Part shown: positions 2,656-43,203 of the stretch, in pieces
Layout of the letters: each line of letters starts with the position of its first letter
How positions within the stretch are numbered: position 1 is the first letter of the stretch
Assembly: GCF_002188465.1 (NCBI RefSeq)
Contig: NZ_NINW01000041.1
Location: 62,001-126,000 of the forward strand
From: Pigmentiphaga sp. NML080357
GTDB taxonomy: Bacteria; Pseudomonadota; Gammaproteobacteria; Burkholderiales; Burkholderiaceae_B
DNA length: 64,000 bases
Direction of reading: 5' to 3'
Translations under genes and position numbers: made by a program
The notes under the pieces: model-generated
Databases searched by the model: none
Told to the model about the DNA's origin: nothing
The model's input: the letters and a program-made list of their open reading frames with translations, nothing else

Positions 2656-3831
2656 ATGGCACGCTTGAACGGACCGGACTTCGGCCTGAACGACACGGTG
2701 GACATGCTGCGCGAGATCGTGCGCGGCTTCGCGGCCGGCGAGATCGCACCGCGCGCGGCGGCCATCGACCGCGACAACGAGTTTCCCGCCGACCTGTGGA
2801 AGAAAATGGGAGACCTGGGCCTGCACGGGCTGACCGTGGCGGACGAGTACGGCGGGACCGCGCTGGGCTATCTCGCCCATATCGTCGCCATGGAAGAGAT
2901 CTCGCGCGCGTCGGCGGCCGTCGGCCTTTCCTACGGCGCGCATTCCAACCTGTGCGTGAACCAGCTGCACCGGCACGGCACGGCCGGCCAGAAAGCCCGC
3001 TACCTGCCCAAGCTCGTGGCGGGCGAACACGTCGGCGCCCTGGCGATGAGCGAACCCGGCGCGGGGTCGGACGTGGTAAGCATGCGGCTGCGCGCCGACA
3101 AGCGCGGCGACCGCTACGTGCTCAACGGCTCGAAGATGTGGATCACCAACGGCGGCGATGCCGACACGCTGATCGTCTATGCCAAGACCGCCCCCGAGGA
3201 GGGCGCGCGCGGCATTACGGCCTTCATCGTCGAAAAGGGCTTCGCCGGACTGAGCTTCGGCGCCAAGCTCGACAAGCTGGGCATGCGGGGCTCCAACACC
3301 TATCCCGTGTTCTTCGACCACTGCGAGGTTCCGGAGGAAAACGTCCTGGGCGGCGTAGGCGACGGCGTGCGGGTCCTGATGAGCGGGCTGGACTACGAGC
3401 GAGCCGTGCTGGCCGGCGGGCCGCTGGGCATCATGGCCGCCTGCATGGACGCCGTGCTCCCCTACCTGCACGAGCGCAAGCAGTTCGGACAAAGCATAGG
3501 GGAGTTCCAGCTCATGCAGGGCAAGGTGGCCGACATGTACACCGCCTGGCAGGCGTGCCGGGCCTATGTCTACGCGGTGGGACGCACGTGCGACGGCCCC
3601 GGTCCGGGCCGCGCGCTGCGAAAGGACGCCGCGGGCGCCATCCTGTACGCGGCCGAGAAGGCAACCTGGATGGCGGGCGAAGCCATCCAGGCCCTGGGCG
3701 GCAACGGCTACATCAACGACTATCCGACGGGGCGCCTGTGGCGCGACGCCAAGCTCTACGAAATAGGCGCCGGCACGAGCGAGATCCGGCGCATGCTAAT
3801 CGGCCGGGAGCTGTTTGCCGAATCTCGTTGA
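2656..3831 (+). CDS. ivd: Isovaleryl-CoA dehydrogenase
   Basis: A 391-residue FAD-dependent acyl-CoA dehydrogenase that oxidises isovaleryl-CoA to 3-methylcrotonyl-CoA in leucine breakdown. Visible motifs are the flavin-contact segment EPGAGSDV (133-140), KMWITNGG (160-167), and the C-terminal [13 protein letters not shown] and GAGTSEIRR. Glu248 in LDYERA lies on the helix where isovaleryl-CoA dehydrogenases carry their catalytic base, unlike the C-terminal Glu of most other family members; this and the adjacent methylcrotonyl-CoA carboxylase genes support the substrate. A GAGGAG-like ribosome site lies just before the ATG. The next gene starts 23 bases downstream. Confidence 0.93.
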
Positions 3832-35859: not shown

Positions 35860-36627
35860 TCAACGGCTCTCGCTCGCTTGCCGGTCATCGCAAAGCGCGG
35901 CCGGCCCGGCGGCACATTCGGCCAGCGCCGGCTTTGCCGGTTCATCCGCATAGCTGATCGCGTACTCCAGCAACGCGACGACCTGATCGGGGCGCTCGCG
36001 CTGGCCCAGCGCATAGAAGGCCACGAGATAGAAGCAGCAGGCAAGGATCAAGGGCGTCCACAGGAAAAAATTGCTGTTCTCCTTGAGTAAGGTGCTGGCC
36101 GATACCGAGGCGGCCGCCAAGGCTGGAAACAAACCCAGCTTGCGCAGATCCCCTGCCAGCACCGCCGCACGCCCGTCGAAGGAAGACCAGCGGTGGCGAT
36201 ACTGCAACAGCCCGTACTCCAGCGTCGGCTTGTCGAAGGCCCACAGTCTCTCGAGAAACGCGGCATCGCCATGCAACTCGCTCTTGAGCGTCGCGAAGAT
36301 GGCGGCAAAGCGCTGTCGGCGATGGCGCCACACCGCCTGCGTGACGCCGGCGGCAACCGTCGCCAGATAGAGGATGGCGAATAGCAGACTGAGGAAGTAA
36401 ATGGCGTAAACCGGCACGGGAACGCCCTGTACGGGGCCCTCGGATGCAAAGCGGTACCACGCCGCGACGGCCACGAAGACGAGGATGCTGGCAATGAATC
36501 CGCCCATCAGCCAGTTTTCAGCGCGCTGCATGCGCCGTGATGGCGCAAACGTGGCGTCTCCTTTGGCAGAGCCCGTCATTTCCTCCAGAAGCTGGAACAG
36601 GGCATCCAGCTTGTCGCTGCGAAGCAT
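35860..36627 (-). CDS. Hypothetical membrane protein with four predicted helices
   Basis: A 255-residue protein. Hydrophobic segments fall at about 40-61, 74-98, 170-186 and 192-216, separated by a roughly 70-residue polar segment after the second (HRRQRFAAIFATLKSELHG). The N-terminal 35 residues are polar and likely cytoplasmic. No family is recognised. The next gene on this strand, a nuclease, lies 37 bases upstream. Confidence 0.75.
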   Translation of the reverse strand: MLRSDKLDALFQLLEEMTGSAKGDATFAPSRRMQRAENWLMGGFIASILVFVAVAAWYRFASEGPVQGVPVPVYAIYFLSLLFAILYLATVAAGVTQAVWRHRRQRFAAIFATLKSELHGDAAFLERLWAFDKPTLEYGLLQYRHRWSSFDGRAAVLAGDLRKLGLFPALAAASVSASTLLKENSNFFLWTPLILACCFYLVAFYALGQRERPDQVVALLEYAISYADEPAKPALAECAAGPAALCDDRQASESR

Positions 36628-36664
36628 GTAGTCACCTCCCGATTGGACAAGCCCCTAATCTTAC

Positions 36665-37144
36665 TTAGAGGCTGCCCCGTTTCCGGTACGTCCACGGCGC
36701 GACAGGCGCCGGCAGCGCCCACAGGCCACGCCGCTCCGCCTTCGCCTCGCCCTGCAGGTCGACCAGCGCGCGTTCCGCGTTGAACTTGGGATAGACCCAT
36801 GCATACCCATGGCGCAGCATCGTTTCTTGCACGCTGCCGTGGCCGCAATCGACATCGCCCAACGTGCGGCCATAGCGATCCTTGCCTCTGCGCAACAACC
36901 GGGCCGGCGCGCCGACGGGACACAGCGCCCGCAGGAAATCACGCGACGAAACCCCGCTGGCCTGGCCGATTTCCGGTGCATCGATCCGCTCCAGGCGCAC
37001 CGGGATGCTTTTCTTTTGCAAAGGACACTGCAGGCGCATCGTGTCGCCGTCATGAACGGACGCCACAGTGCAGACCTGGGCCGCGACGGCGCAGGGCAAG
37101 GCAAGGGCGAGGACGGACATGGCTTGCCGGACGATGGATGCCAT
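36665..37144 (-). CDS. Secreted thermonuclease (SNase-like) family protein
   Basis: A 159-residue protein with a signal peptide (MASIVRQAMSVLALALPCAV then AAQ) and a staphylococcal-nuclease fold: VHDGDTMRL (metal-site Asp), PVRLERIDAPEIGQ (Arg and Asp/Glu pair) and RYGRTLGDV (second catalytic Arg). It probably degrades nucleic acid in the periplasm or outside. An in-frame ATG at 37198 would add a polar leader before the signal peptide, so 37144 was chosen. Confidence 0.85.
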   Translation of the reverse strand: MASIVRQAMSVLALALPCAVAAQVCTVASVHDGDTMRLQCPLQKKSIPVRLERIDAPEIGQASGVSSRDFLRALCPVGAPARLLRRGKDRYGRTLGDVDCGHGSVQETMLRHGYAWVYPKFNAERALVDLQGEAKAERRGLWALPAPVAPWTYRKRGSL

Positions 37145-37288
37145 GGACAGCGAGGGGAAATGCGCGGGGGAGTTCGAGAAGGAGCGGGGGGACATCAAAC
37201 AATGCTACGCGGGGTCGGGACCAAGAGTGGCGATCTTACCAAGGACAAGGGAAGAGCTCTCGTGTCCTGGAAAGCCACACAAATATTA

Positions 37289-37336
37289 TGGTGCCGGGGC
37301 CGGAATCGAACCGGCACGCCTTGCGGCGGGGGATTT
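37289..37336 (-). repeat. Truncated copy of the tRNA-Leu 3' half (candidate att site)
   Basis: These 48 bases repeat 40451-40499 (49 bases) in direct orientation, with a single one-base deletion in the acceptor strand (CCCGGC for CCCGGGC). The copied part runs from the last anticodon base through the variable arm and T-arm to CCA; the 5' half of the tRNA is missing, and the acceptor and anticodon stems no longer pair, so it should not be functional. This is the usual shape of an attachment-site remnant left by tyrosine-recombinase integration at a tRNA 3' end. Confidence 0.75.
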
Positions 37337-37658
37337 GCAGTCGCGGCCACTGTACCGGCGACATAGGCTAGATGCCCGCATACCATTCATAGCCACGATC
37401 CTCCCAATATCCTCCTCGCCACCCGGTATGCGGCCCAGGGCAGCGCCCCGCCATTGCCCGATGGCGCTCCCTCCTTCCACGCAGTCGTGCCGGGTGATCC
37501 GGGTGCGCTACGGCATGCCTTTCAGGTCGGCGAGCGACAGGCTTAGCGGCTGCTGGTGAGCCAATGGCGCGGCGCAGGGCTTTGCCCTGCGTAGACCTGC
37601 ATGGCCGGCAGAGCGGAACACGGAATGCGCCGCTACGATGACGCCACAGCTCTTAATC
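37337..37658. other. 322-base spacer without a supported gene
   Basis: Lies between the tRNA fragment and the aldehyde dehydrogenase stop. I see a hairpin (CGCAGGGC-TTT-GCCCTGCG, 37573-37591) without a T-run, and short open frames on both strands with no recognisable domain. It may hold debris of a former gene. Confidence 0.5.
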
Positions 37659-39038
37659 TCAGCTGTCCAGCCCGCCCATTAGCACGTACTTCACTTCGAC
37701 GTATTCCTCGATACCGTAGAAGCTGCCTTCGCGCCCGTAACCGGATTGCTTGACACCGCCGAATGGCACTGACGCCGTACCGACCGACCCTGAATTCAGG
37801 ATCACCATGCCTGCCTGGATATCCCGGGACATGCGGAATGCCCGCCCGACGTCCCGCGTATAAACATAGGCCACCAGCCCGTATTCGGTATTGTTGGCTC
37901 TTTCGAGCACCTCATCCTCGCAGCCAAAACGGTAGACGGGAAAGACGGGCCCGAAGATTTCGGTACGGGCTATCGCCATTTCGTCATTCAGGTCGGTCAG
38001 GATAGTCGGCTCGTAGAACAGCCCGCCCTTGGCATGGGGCTTGCCTCCCAGCGGTGTCGACGCCCCCCGCCGCCGAGTGTCTTCAACCAACCGCGCTACC
38101 TTGTCGAAGCCCGCCTGATTAATGAGCGGGCCGACGACGAATTCCTGTTGCATTCCGCTGTCCACGCGCACCTGGGCAACTTTTTCGGCCAGGGCGGCAA
38201 CGAAGCGGTCATGTATGGCCTCCTGCACATAGATGCGGTTGGGCGAAATACAAACTTGCCCCGAATTCCTGAGCTTGGCGGCCACCAGGCCCGCCACGGC
38301 CTGCTCCAAGTCGGCATCGTCGAAGACGATGAACGGCGCGTTGCCTCCCAGTTCAAGCGTCATCTTCTTCAGTGCGCGCCCGCTGGCAGTCGCCAGCAGC
38401 TTGCCTACCGCGGTGGACCCTGTGAAGGAAATCTTGCGGATGCGGTCGTCCTGTGTAAACAGTTCCCCGATGGCTTGCGGGTTTCCTGTCACCATCTCGA
38501 ATACGCCCTCGGGGATGCCCGCCTTGCGGGCGTACTCCAGCAGTTTGTATGCCGTCAGCGGCGTTTTCTCGGACGGCTTGATCACCATCGTGCAGCCCGC
38601 CGCCAGCGCCGTGGCTACCTTGCGGGTAACCATCATGAAGGGAAAGTTCCAGGGCGTGATGGCTGCAGTGGGTCCGACAGGCTCTTTCACGACCAGAACA
38701 GCGGCATTGCCGGCGTGCGACGGAATGGTGTCGCCATACACCCGTTTGGCTTCTTCGGCATACCACTCGATGAAACCGAGCCCGTAGTCGATTTCACCCA
38801 GGGCTTCGGCGAGACACTTGCCGTTTTCATAGACCATGATTTCGGCGAAGACTTGCTTATCAGCGCTTACCAGTTCGAACCAGCGGCGAAGCATGTCGCC
38901 GCGTTCCTTCGCCAGGGTGCGCGACCAGCCGGGGAAGGCACGGCAAGTTCGGTCTATGGCGGCCTTGACCTCGGCGACGCCCATGTCGGGGGCTTGCCCG
39001 ACGATGGACCCATCGGCGGGATTGTTGACGTTGATCAT
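37659..39038 (-). CDS. NAD(P)-dependent aldehyde dehydrogenase, succinate-semialdehyde dehydrogenase-like
   Basis: A 459-residue aldehyde dehydrogenase. Catalytic features are present: PWNFP (oxyanion Asn131), FTGSTAVGK (cofactor loop), Glu229 in LELGGNAPF and nucleophile Cys263 in NSGQVCISPNR. The best text match from memory is the GabD-like group (succinate-semialdehyde or related). The N-terminus begins directly with NPADGSIVG, so about 20 residues usual upstream are missing; the ATG at 39038 follows GGAG at a fair distance, while one at 39065 adds MATTGAANI. It is divergent from an AraC gene that probably controls it. It lies in the putative island and looks less GC-rich than neighbours. 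Confidence 0.9.
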   Translation of the reverse strand: MINVNNPADGSIVGQAPDMGVAEVKAAIDRTCRAFPGWSRTLAKERGDMLRRWFELVSADKQVFAEIMVYENGKCLAEALGEIDYGLGFIEWYAEEAKRVYGDTIPSHAGNAAVLVVKEPVGPTAAITPWNFPFMMVTRKVATALAAGCTMVIKPSEKTPLTAYKLLEYARKAGIPEGVFEMVTGNPQAIGELFTQDDRIRKISFTGSTAVGKLLATASGRALKKMTLELGGNAPFIVFDDADLEQAVAGLVAAKLRNSGQVCISPNRIYVQEAIHDRFVAALAEKVAQVRVDSGMQQEFVVGPLINQAGFDKVARLVEDTRRRGASTPLGGKPHAKGGLFYEPTILTDLNDEMAIARTEIFGPVFPVYRFGCEDEVLERANNTEYGLVAYVYTRDVGRAFRMSRDIQAGMVILNSGSVGTASVPFGGVKQSGYGREGSFYGIEEYVEVKYVLMGGLDS

Positions 39039-39098
39039 GATGTTTGCAGCTCCAGTTGTTGCCACTTCGGGCCGAGCGAAATGCGGCGGCCGGCGTTT

Positions 39099-39149
39099 GA
39101 ATAATAGTTATCGGTAAACTGGAGATGAATGGCTTTCAGTCTATTATTC
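39099..39149. promoter_or_regulatory. Paired inverted 9-bp sites in the ALDH/araC spacer
   Basis: GAATAATAG (39099-39107) recurs as its reverse complement at 39141-39149. The sites are about 42 bases centre to centre (four helical turns) and lie midway in the AT-rich 188-base divergent spacer. They are a plausible target of the AraC protein. Confidence 0.5.
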
Positions 39150-39226
39150 TTGCCTAATCCTATGAATTCTGAAATTTCGAAGCAGTCCCAGAAAACTATC
39201 CGTCCTGGTCTGGGGAGGGCCTGGCG

Positions 39227-40189
39227 GTGAGTGCAGCAGACAACGCCGCCACACGGGGCGCGCGCACCCGGGACAGGCGCTTGGCGGCCATGCTGGAACG
39301 CCTGGCGCCTTGCGAGGGATACAACCTGAGTGCCCTGCCCGATGTCAGGTTCTTGCGGTCCAACCGTCCCTTGTCCGCCGTGCCGGTACTTTACGACCCT
39401 GGCATCGTGTTCGTGTGCCAAGGCAGGAAGCGCGGGTATTTTGGCGACCAGGTCTACCTGTACGACGACCAGCACTATCTGGCGGTTTCGGTGCCCGTGC
39501 CGTTCACCATGGAAACCGACGCCAGCGCCCGGGAACCGCTGCTGGCGATCTACATGCACCTCGACTTGAAGCTGGCCGCGGATTTGATGTTGCAGATCGA
39601 CCAACATGGCGGGATAGAACCCGGGCAACCGCGCGGCCTGATGTCCACGCCAATGGACTCGCGGTTATGCGAATCCCTGGTGCGTTTCCTGGAGGCCATG
39701 AGTCGCCCCCTCGAATCCCGGATACTCGGTCCGGCACTGGTTCGGGAAATCTACTTCCATGTGCTCACCGGAGAACAGGGCGCTTCGATGCGGGCGGCGC
39801 TGGCCATGCACGGGCAGTTCGGCAAGATCGCCCGCGCGCTGCGCCGCATCCACGCGTCGTTCAACGCCGATTTCAGCGTCGAACAGCTGGCGCGAGAAGC
39901 GGGAATGAGCGTGCCCACCTTCCATACGCACTTCAAGGCGGTAACCCATACTTCGCCCCTGCAGTACGTAAAGTCGATACGCCTGCACCAGGCCCGCCTG
40001 TATATGGTGCGCAATGGCATGACGGCCGCGGCGGCAAGCGCCGAAGTCGGCTATGACAGCCCCTCTCAGTTCAGCCGTGAGTTCAAGCGCCTGTTCGGGC
40101 GCAGCCCAGTTGAAGAAGTCAGGCGGATGAAGGCGGACTTCGCCGTTCCGCCCGCCCATGCGGCTTCTGTGTATGTGTCGTCACATTGA
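39227..40189 (+). CDS. AraC-family transcriptional regulator
   Basis: A 320-residue regulator with a cupin-like N-terminal domain (about 30-190: VPVLYDPGIVFVCQGRK, YLYDDQHYLAVSVPVPF) of the AraC_N type. A C-terminal double HTH follows (FSVEQLAREAGMSVPTFHTH, and GYDSPSQFSREFKRLFGRSP). The frame has no ATG near the N-terminus; GTG at 39227 follows GGGGAGGGCC and gives a sensible start. It is divergent from the aldehyde dehydrogenase and probably activates it in response to an aldehyde or precursor. Confidence 0.9.
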   Translation: MSAADNAATRGARTRDRRLAAMLERLAPCEGYNLSALPDVRFLRSNRPLSAVPVLYDPGIVFVCQGRKRGYFGDQVYLYDDQHYLAVSVPVPFTMETDASAREPLLAIYMHLDLKLAADLMLQIDQHGGIEPGQPRGLMSTPMDSRLCESLVRFLEAMSRPLESRILGPALVREIYFHVLTGEQGASMRAALAMHGQFGKIARALRRIHASFNADFSVEQLAREAGMSVPTFHTHFKAVTHTSPLQYVKSIRLHQARLYMVRNGMTAAAASAEVGYDSPSQFSREFKRLFGRSPVEEVRRMKADFAVPPAHAASVYVSSH

Positions 40190-40211
40190 GAATCTGACCG
40201 CCGATCGCCAT

Positions 40212-40390
40212 TCAACGCGAGACAGCGTCGTGCAACAACTCGCGCGGGCCAGCTGTCATCCATGGGGAGAGCTTGCGTTTCTTGATTCGCCATCCGTCTT
40301 CAGTGCGCACCGCGGTCCACCGGTTGGCGACGCGGAAAATCTTGTGCCCTGCGAAAGTCCATGGTTGGGCGACTTCGATTCCAGTGCATT
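40212..40390 (-). pseudogene. Remnant resembling the C-terminus of an NTF2/SnoaL-like protein
   Basis: The reverse strand encodes FAGHKIFRVANRWTAVR followed by TEDGWRIKKRKLSP. The aromatic-Arg pattern and the DGWRI ending are common at the last strands of SnoaL-like and ring-hydroxylase beta proteins. No start or N-terminal domain exists: upstream sequence is the tRNA-Leu terminator. A frame change downstream (about 40245-40275) gives further plausible text (PMDDSWPARVVARR). It looks like a decayed 3' gene end within the island. Confidence 0.35.
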
Positions 40391-40410
40391 GCAGGGCGCA
40401 CCTAAAGATA

Positions 40411-40443
40411 AAAAAGCCGCTCTGCATTGCAGTAGCGGCTTTT
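40411..40443 (-). terminator. Rho-independent terminator after tRNA-Leu
   Basis: AAAAGCCGCT (40412-40421) pairs perfectly with AGCGGCTTTT (40434-40443) and, read on the minus strand, is followed by T residues. It lies 8 bases past the tRNA 3' end. Confidence 0.8.
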
Positions 40444-40450
40444 CAAATTC

Positions 40451-40535
40451 TGGTGCCCGGGGCCGGAATCGAACCGGCACGCCTTGCGGCGGGGGATTTT
40501 GAGTCCCCTGCGTCTACCAATTTCACCACCCGGGC
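40451..40535 (-). tRNA. tRNA-Leu, anticodon CAA
   Basis: An 85-base class II tRNA with CCA encoded. The acceptor stem GCCCGGG/CCCGGGC pairs perfectly over 7 bp; the anticodon stem is GGGGA/TCCCC with loop CTCAAAA (anticodon CAA at 40501-40499). It has the long variable arm expected of tRNA-Leu (CGCC-GCAA-GGCG), and the T-arm is GCCGG-TTCGATT-CCGGC. It reads UUG codons. A partial direct copy of its 3' half at 37289-37336 marks it as an integration target. Confidence 0.95.
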
Positions 40536-40626
40536 AGGTTCCGGCACGAGCGACCGGAAGGAGGGAAGCCCTAAATTATACCCACAATTTAGGGTACTCT
40601 GTGCCCTCATCAACCAGGAGCAAGCC

Positions 40627-40908
40627 ATGGCTCACGCAAGCGCCCGTCACATCCTCGTATCCACCGAAGCCCAGTGCAATGAATTGAAAGCCGCGATCAA
40701 GGGCGGCGCCGATTTCGCCGATGTGGCACGCCAGCACTCGAGCTGCCCTTCCCGCGCCGCCGGCGGCGATCTCGGTACCTTCGGGCCCGGCCAGATGGTG
40801 CCGGAATTCGACAAGGTGGTGTTCAGCGCCCCCGTCAATGTCGTCCAGGGGCCGGTCAAGACCCAGTTCGGCTATCACCTGGTGGAAGTCACCAGCCGGC
40901 AGGACTGA
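40627..40908 (+). CDS. ppiC: Parvulin-type peptidyl-prolyl cis-trans isomerase
   Basis: A 93-residue single-domain parvulin, the size of E. coli PpiC. Family motifs: [13 protein letters not shown] at the N-terminus, [36 protein letters not shown] and [13 protein letters not shown]. It catalyses proline isomerisation in folding proteins and has no signal peptide, so it is cytoplasmic. The start follows CAGGAGCAAGCC. It lies downstream of the tRNA gene on the opposite strand. Confidence 0.93.
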
Positions 40909-41047
40909 GGGCAACCGGGCGGGACCGCCGCGCCATCGAGGCGGGGCCGTCCCCCTCACGAAGGGCCCGGCGGAGTTCCCGCGGATAGGCCAGCCCCGGG
41001 GCGGGTTATCATGGCTGGTTTTCCGTAGATTTTTCAAGCCCTTAGCC

Positions 41048-43203
<2,156 letters not shown>

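Follow-up and report, generated by a model that had tools for sequence, protein, structure and literature searches.

Elements that have lost their integration and transfer genes and kept their ends are described, in passages of PMC5704250, as cis-mobilizable elements (CIMEs). Group I introns, for their part, occur in transfer-messenger RNA (tmRNA) genes (passages of PMC11915505) and in bacterial tRNAs such as tRNA-Leu(UAA) (passages of PMC4033280). Here we describe an islet at a tRNA-Leu(CAA) gene of Pigmentiphaga sp. NML080357. It lies in a stretch of 64,000 nucleotides (contig NZ_NINW01000041.1, positions 62,001 to 126,000), called the window below and used for all coordinates without a locus number; G and L numbers denote genomes and loci. 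The best reading of the islet's sequence is that it would be decayed, integrase-less and CIME-like, and so belong to a known kind of element. The same tRNA in relatives is the target of a more unusual class of elements, which appear to replace it with an intron-bearing copy.

Results

The only tRNA that ARAGORN finds in the window is tRNA-Leu(CAA) at 40451-40535 on the minus strand (Rfam tRNA RF00005, 53 bits), and Rfam returned nothing but this tRNA over positions 36000-42000. An earlier note on this DNA had proposed that the gene and a direct, truncated copy of its 3' half enclose a small island, and both ends are confirmed. The copy aligns with the intact tRNA over 49 nt without gaps at 96% identity (37294-37342 versus 40457-40505), and a local alignment takes it to 37289-37342, equivalent to tRNA positions 31-85, at 94.5%. 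The single deletion reported in that note is real, the copy having one G fewer in its acceptor part; two further mismatches both fall in the anticodon. When the 59 contigs of the same genome are compared with the copy region, just one match appears besides the copy and the intact tRNA, at 86%, in the 3' exon of a tRNA-Leu that is interrupted by an intron and lies on another contig. Outside tRNA-Leu genes the copy has no counterpart in the genome, so that it is not background. The fragment could also have arisen without mobile DNA, by chance or through an ancient duplication shared by the whole family, an explanation that is hardly credible in view of this uniqueness and of the partial copies in relatives, which are patchy and lie at varying distances from the tRNA; no point in its favour was found. 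The 3.1 kb between the two ends contain intact genes for an aldehyde dehydrogenase (ALDH) and an AraC regulator, together with gene scraps, arranged as follows.

36665-37198, minus: staphylococcal-nuclease-like (SNase) gene, left flank, common to congener G004 (Pfam; L039 matches it at 83% DNA identity as far as window ~37257)
37289-37342, minus: truncated direct copy of the tRNA-Leu(CAA) 3' half (positions 31-85), attR-like (alignments to the intact tRNA)
37343-37369, no strand: ~27 bp between passenger and tRNA copy, without match in G133
37370-37556, minus: remnant of a molybdopterin oxidoreductase gene in two pieces, one being the C-terminal end with the stop, middle missing (matches L228 11657-11785 and 12072-12120)
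37659-39065, minus: aldehyde dehydrogenase, intact, 468 aa (Pfam PF00171, NCBIfam; 95% amino-acid identity to G136)
39227-40189, plus: AraC-family regulator, intact, 320 aa (Pfam AraC_N, HTH_18; 97% amino-acid identity to G136, 95% to G133)
40190-40409, minus: SnoaL_4 gene remnant, the C-terminal 61 of 273 residues in two frames, cut near the terminator (tblastn of the G133 protein, Pfam of that protein, DNA alignment)
40410-40450, minus: native-type tRNA terminator hairpin adjoining the intact tRNA (resembles the sequence 3' of the tRNA in G010 and G005, and 3' of the far copies in G001 and G007)
40451-40535, minus: intact tRNA-Leu(CAA), the attachment gene, 3' end toward the islet (ARAGORN, Rfam RF00005)
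40627-40908, plus: PpiC-type prolyl isomerase, right flank (Pfam; adjoins this tRNA in six congeners, in G006 with its 5' half)

Partial copies of this kind were surveyed in 40 relatives and the genome itself, the counts being those of the matches listed. At least five of ten congeners (G001, G002, G003, G006 and G007) have partial 3' halves 4-40 kb from tRNA-Leu(CAA) on the same strand, and among the matches listed such halves also lie near the tRNA in G011, G012, G016, G018 and G023. The ten far copies in the relatives' loci start at tRNA position 31-34 in eight cases, at 27 in one and at 51 in one. Five of the eight candidate open reading frames (ORFs) scanned (L044, L046, L047, L266 and L268), all from other genera, encode a PF00589 integrase next to the tRNA or far copy; the remaining three encode a DUF6119 protein (L045), a below-cut-off match to an integrase N-terminal domain (L048) and ApbE (L270). 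That the 3' half of tRNA-Leu(CAA) is a site used by integrative elements, and a hot spot, is well supported. PpiC adjoins the tRNA at 92-96% identity in six congeners (G002, G003, G004, G005, G006 and G008), compared with at most 83% in the best 80 loci, mostly Pseudomonas, of a wider contig collection, and the sequence 3' of the tRNA varies among these six, being related in G002 and G003 and different in the others.

With its one-base deletion included, the window copy is matched at 100% over 48-49 nt in G145, G016, G228, G217, G112 and G114, the G217 match being the 3' exon of an intron-bearing tRNA. Considering the acceptor part of 13 far copies, the window's among them, three have one G fewer (window, L047 and L268), two have one G more (L037 and L038), five keep the G run and three carry other damage (the first copy of L041, L045 and L048), which is how unused tRNA ends should look. 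The one-G deletion recurs in different genera and beside different adjoining sequences (L047 18308-18360, L268 13130-13181 and window 37289-37342).

Over 2704 bp, the ALDH-AraC block shares 92.4% identity with G136, from another genus of the same family; with G133, of that same other genus, it shares 87.2% over 2746 bp, and with four further genomes 74-77%. Control genes from queA to secF reach 79-80% in G136 and 78-80% in G133, against 91% in the congener G004. Because the block is far closer to another genus than these core genes are, it points to horizontal acquisition, and on these identities the DNA between tRNA and copy is judged to be horizontally acquired. Relatives of the AraC regulator (E <= 1e-60) occur in 63 of 268 family genomes, the genome itself included, and in only two of the ten other congeners, there at no more than 64% identity and on a contig other than that of the tRNA. 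The block is absent from this site in all nine congeners whose site was located (that of G009 was not), contrary to the prospect, raised in the earlier note, of the genes standing at the same site in all relatives. As that note had also suggested, guanine-plus-cytosine content is lower inside the islet, at 60.4% in ALDH, 63.1% in AraC and 49.1% in the spacer 39066-39226, compared with 66-67% in the flanks.

In G133 and G136 the passenger lies among ordinary metabolic genes. A pectate-lyase-like gene follows the block in G136 (L227 9770-11041) in place of an intact SnoaL gene, so the block stands in different contexts in G136 and G133. Beside the homologous locus of G133, an ORF (L228 12285-12863) has a below-cut-off match to a Pfam toxin catalytic domain (E 3e-4, 20.6 versus 25.9 bits).

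Both ends of the islet carry gene remnants, the SnoaL gene being cut (the remnant of a third gene in the earlier note) and the oxidoreductase, whose full-length relative carries PF00174, lying in pieces. Between oxidoreductase and ALDH, G133 has a stretch of 3.15 kb with genes for TetR and cytochrome b561 and two unassigned ORFs, where the window has ~0.1 kb; inside the oxidoreductase, 9 bp of the window correspond to 0.29 kb, and in all the window lacks ~3.3 kb relative to G133. As G133 has the full-length genes, the 0.29-kb gap and the SnoaL cut are losses in the window; the 3.15-kb difference, too, is most likely a loss there. Compared with G136, ALDH and AraC show a synonymous divergence (dS) of ~0.21 and a ratio of nonsynonymous to synonymous divergence (dN/dS) of 0.08-0.10, and compared with G133 the ratio is 0.08-0.12; by gene it is ~0.08 for AraC and 0.10-0.12 for ALDH. 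Such low ratios argue that the pair has been kept under purifying selection. The nearest curated model for the ALDH is succinate-semialdehyde dehydrogenase, its score lying under that model's cut-off. None of the seven PF00589 matches of the genome is on the window's contig, in agreement with the lack of an integrase noticed before, and together with the remnants and the missing DNA the proposal of a decayed element holds up.

In order to account for these features, we lean, with some reserve, towards a single element, the islet being the decayed remnant of an integrative element with tRNA-Leu(CAA) as its attachment gene. Recombination by a tyrosine integrase would have taken place in the anticodon loop, and the truncated 3' half at 37289-37342 would be the resulting attR. 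The enclosed DNA is a fragment of a metabolic locus that also occurs in the other genus and codes for a SnoaL-like protein, an AraC regulator, an ALDH and a molybdopterin oxidoreductase; the ~3.3 kb present in G133 has gone from it, most likely through deletion. AraC probably controls the divergently placed ALDH, and this relation may be the reason for the survival of the pair. The islet has no means of movement of its own; with both att-like ends it would be CIME-like, and a resident integrase of this specificity might excise it. The ~27 bp at 37343-37369 may represent an attachment arm from the element that was lost. The sequence next to the copy was also considered as the start of an integrase gene, on a by-eye resemblance to integrase upstream regions, a candidate rejected as most of the stretch is the end of the molybdopterin oxidoreductase gene.

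Several observations weigh against a single element. As an exact pattern, the putative arm has no match in viral contigs and, in the fetched loci, occurs only in three loci cut from the genome itself. No PF00589 integrase was found in the ten ORFs scanned from congeners (L034 and L038), and no clean empty site among the nine congeners whose site was located; the closest synteny on the SNase side, that of G004, matches to window ~37257 and continues with 3.9 kb of different DNA, so that the alignment of relatives called for in the earlier note bears out the absence of the block and yields no empty junction. The surroundings of the homologous loci in G133 and G136 hold no tRNA within 14-18 kb, and therefore give no sign of the passenger on an integrase-bearing element. 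The 3.15-kb difference might conceivably have arisen by insertion in G133. The most telling point is the terminator. One-step integration at the tRNA 3' end should place the terminator beside the far copy, as seen in G001 and G007, whose partial copies lie far from the tRNA; the window has the reverse, with the native-type terminator still 3' of the intact tRNA and none evident 3' of the far copy. Insertion at the tRNA 3' end, as first proposed, thus agrees with the use of this 3' half by elements in relatives and disagrees with a terminator that was not displaced. Either the element carried the terminator, or copy and passenger stem from separate events.

Separate events would mean that an older, deleted island left the copy as its attR scar and that the ALDH/AraC fragment entered on its own beyond the terminator, by illegitimate or homology-driven recombination in an insertion-tolerant hot spot. 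The terminator still beside the intact tRNA, a right junction inside SnoaL at ~40392-40410 and not at the tRNA end, and the setting of the passenger in relatives, among metabolic genes with no tRNA nearby, all favour this history, which nevertheless requires the left boundary of the fragment to have fallen within ~30 bp of the copy (37370 versus 37342); we regard it as a serious but rather unlikely contender.

The order tRNA-terminator-passenger-copy would also be accounted for by movement in trans, in which a foreign integrase excised a tRNA 3' half, terminator and passenger as a circle from between two tRNA-Leu 3' halves, and the circle integrated at the recipient's tRNA. There is a precedent, since passages of PMC2717098 describe how GI1 of Bordetella petrii excises with core-genome DNA via the repeat of a neighbouring island. 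We consider this course improbable, as no donor with the passenger beside tRNA-Leu was found and the recipient's own terminator should follow the far copy, where it is absent or decayed. The single decayed element is therefore the reading we retain for the islet.

Elements of the more unusual class mentioned above lie outside the window, and their sole link to the islet is the common target tRNA. In seven genomes of five genera (G006, G225, G112, G135, G122, G116 and G131), the native tRNA-Leu(CAA) is cut: its 5' half (positions 1-39) is followed by 187-197 bp and then by a complete tRNA-Leu(CAA), itself split after ~position 36 by an insert of 234-251 nt. The 3' half (33-85; 32-85 in G006) lies 14-78 kb farther on the same contig in six of the seven, and in G131 the 3'-half candidates are on another contig. 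The two halves overlap at positions 33-39, which is the anticodon loop. Eight of the 268 family genomes show this junction pattern; besides the seven they include G193, whose contig ends after ~120 bp. The loci are the following.

L034 1695-2255 and 15561-15614; L265/L266; L267/L268; L269; L270; L271; L279: intron-tRNA elements

Among 12 genomes compared, no near-identical uninterrupted copy is listed in the seven, where the longest uninterrupted matches have 71-91% identity and may be other leucine tRNAs; uninterrupted copies occur in G217 (100%) and G208 (88%), which belong to the remaining five. In G135 and G112 a PF00589 integrase lies next to the far copy, and a limited ORF scan covering part of the seven found conjugation genes near the intron-bearing tRNA in G006 (TrbI and CagX) and G112 (TrbI and a TrbE/TraG-like gene). 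Overall, intron-bearing tRNA-Leu genes are present in 77 of 268 genomes (E <= 1e-30), a count in which the CAA kind is mixed with a conserved, probably UAA kind; reading 30 loci by eye gave a 5' exon of CAA type in 20 and of UAA type in 10.

The insert of L034 scores 19.8 bits against the Rfam group I model, for a gathering threshold of 50 (E 0.013), and no Rfam intron reaches that threshold in L034, L044 or L045. When 19 of the 20 CAA-type loci (all but L257) are aligned, the insert proves strongly conserved, and 18 of the 92 pairs of its consensus fold, a thermodynamic consensus and not a group I model, show at least one change on both sides. The case for a group I intron-like insert is made by this conservation and these paired changes. 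We infer that the intron-bearing tRNA is spliced and confers immunity: thanks to the intron, the replacement tRNA would function and yet have its attachment core concealed from the integrase, a ribozyme serving as self-immunity, and the window copy would be a scar of traffic at a contested site. We take this idea to be about as likely as not.

Some observations stand beside these elements. Tandem elements are suggested by G224, where 5 kb separate two tRNA-Leu(CAA) genes that bear introns (L273 6801-7135 and 11810-12130). On another contig of the Pigmentiphaga genome (L051 ~2697-3034, G000:C31), a tRNA-Leu that is probably of the UAA type has a group I intron-like insert and was missed by ARAGORN. 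Two connections between the islet and the intron-bearing class were tried and rejected: the copy is not the 3' exon of such a tRNA, the preceding bases being unlike the intron ends of L034, L044 and L045, and the arm at 37343-37369 is not common to these elements, its alignment scores lying under the mean of shuffles.

Discussion

The islet is an ordinary but well-resolved case of how tRNA sites gather foreign DNA and wear it down while a useful gene pair is kept. In this family tRNA-Leu(CAA) serves more than one kind of element, including a class that splits the tRNA, apparently putting an intron-bearing copy in its place. For archaea, the splitting of tRNA genes has been proposed as a possible hindrance to integration (Randau and Soll 2008, cited in a passage of PMC4033280), and bacterial intron-tRNA elements would make this idea of a barrier directly testable. 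Among the listed titles and abstract starts of open-licence papers dealing with group I introns, tRNA attachment and islands, none points to intron-bearing replacement tRNAs on integrative elements. What these elements share with the tmRNA and tRNA group I introns described in passages of PMC11915505 and PMC4033280 is the interruption of a tRNA-like gene by a group I intron; tmRNA is a common island target as well. They differ in that tmRNA introns sit in the T-loop and that those passages hold no element replacing its cut target with an interrupted gene.

The islet itself has closer counterparts. Like a CIME, in the terms of the PMC5704250 passages, it has att-like ends and retained cargo without integration or transfer genes, a likeness at the sequence level and for few ORFs; it differs in that its missing DNA is measured against a chromosomal-type relative and not an integrative and conjugative element, in the atypical position of the terminator, and in att-like ends known from sequence alone. 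The islands GI1-GI3 of Bordetella petrii, as presented in passages of PMC2717098, are likewise bounded by duplicated tRNA 3' ends and take extra core DNA via alternative repeats, whereas they use tRNA-Gly, carry integrases and have 18-bp repeats. With the Dehalococcoides ssrA islands, as far as passages of PMC3146451 describe them, our locus shares integrase-less cargo, att repeats and an RNA gene that serves islands repeatedly; theirs are found at the tmRNA gene with reductive dehalogenases, while here a single 3-kb islet occupies tRNA-Leu(CAA).

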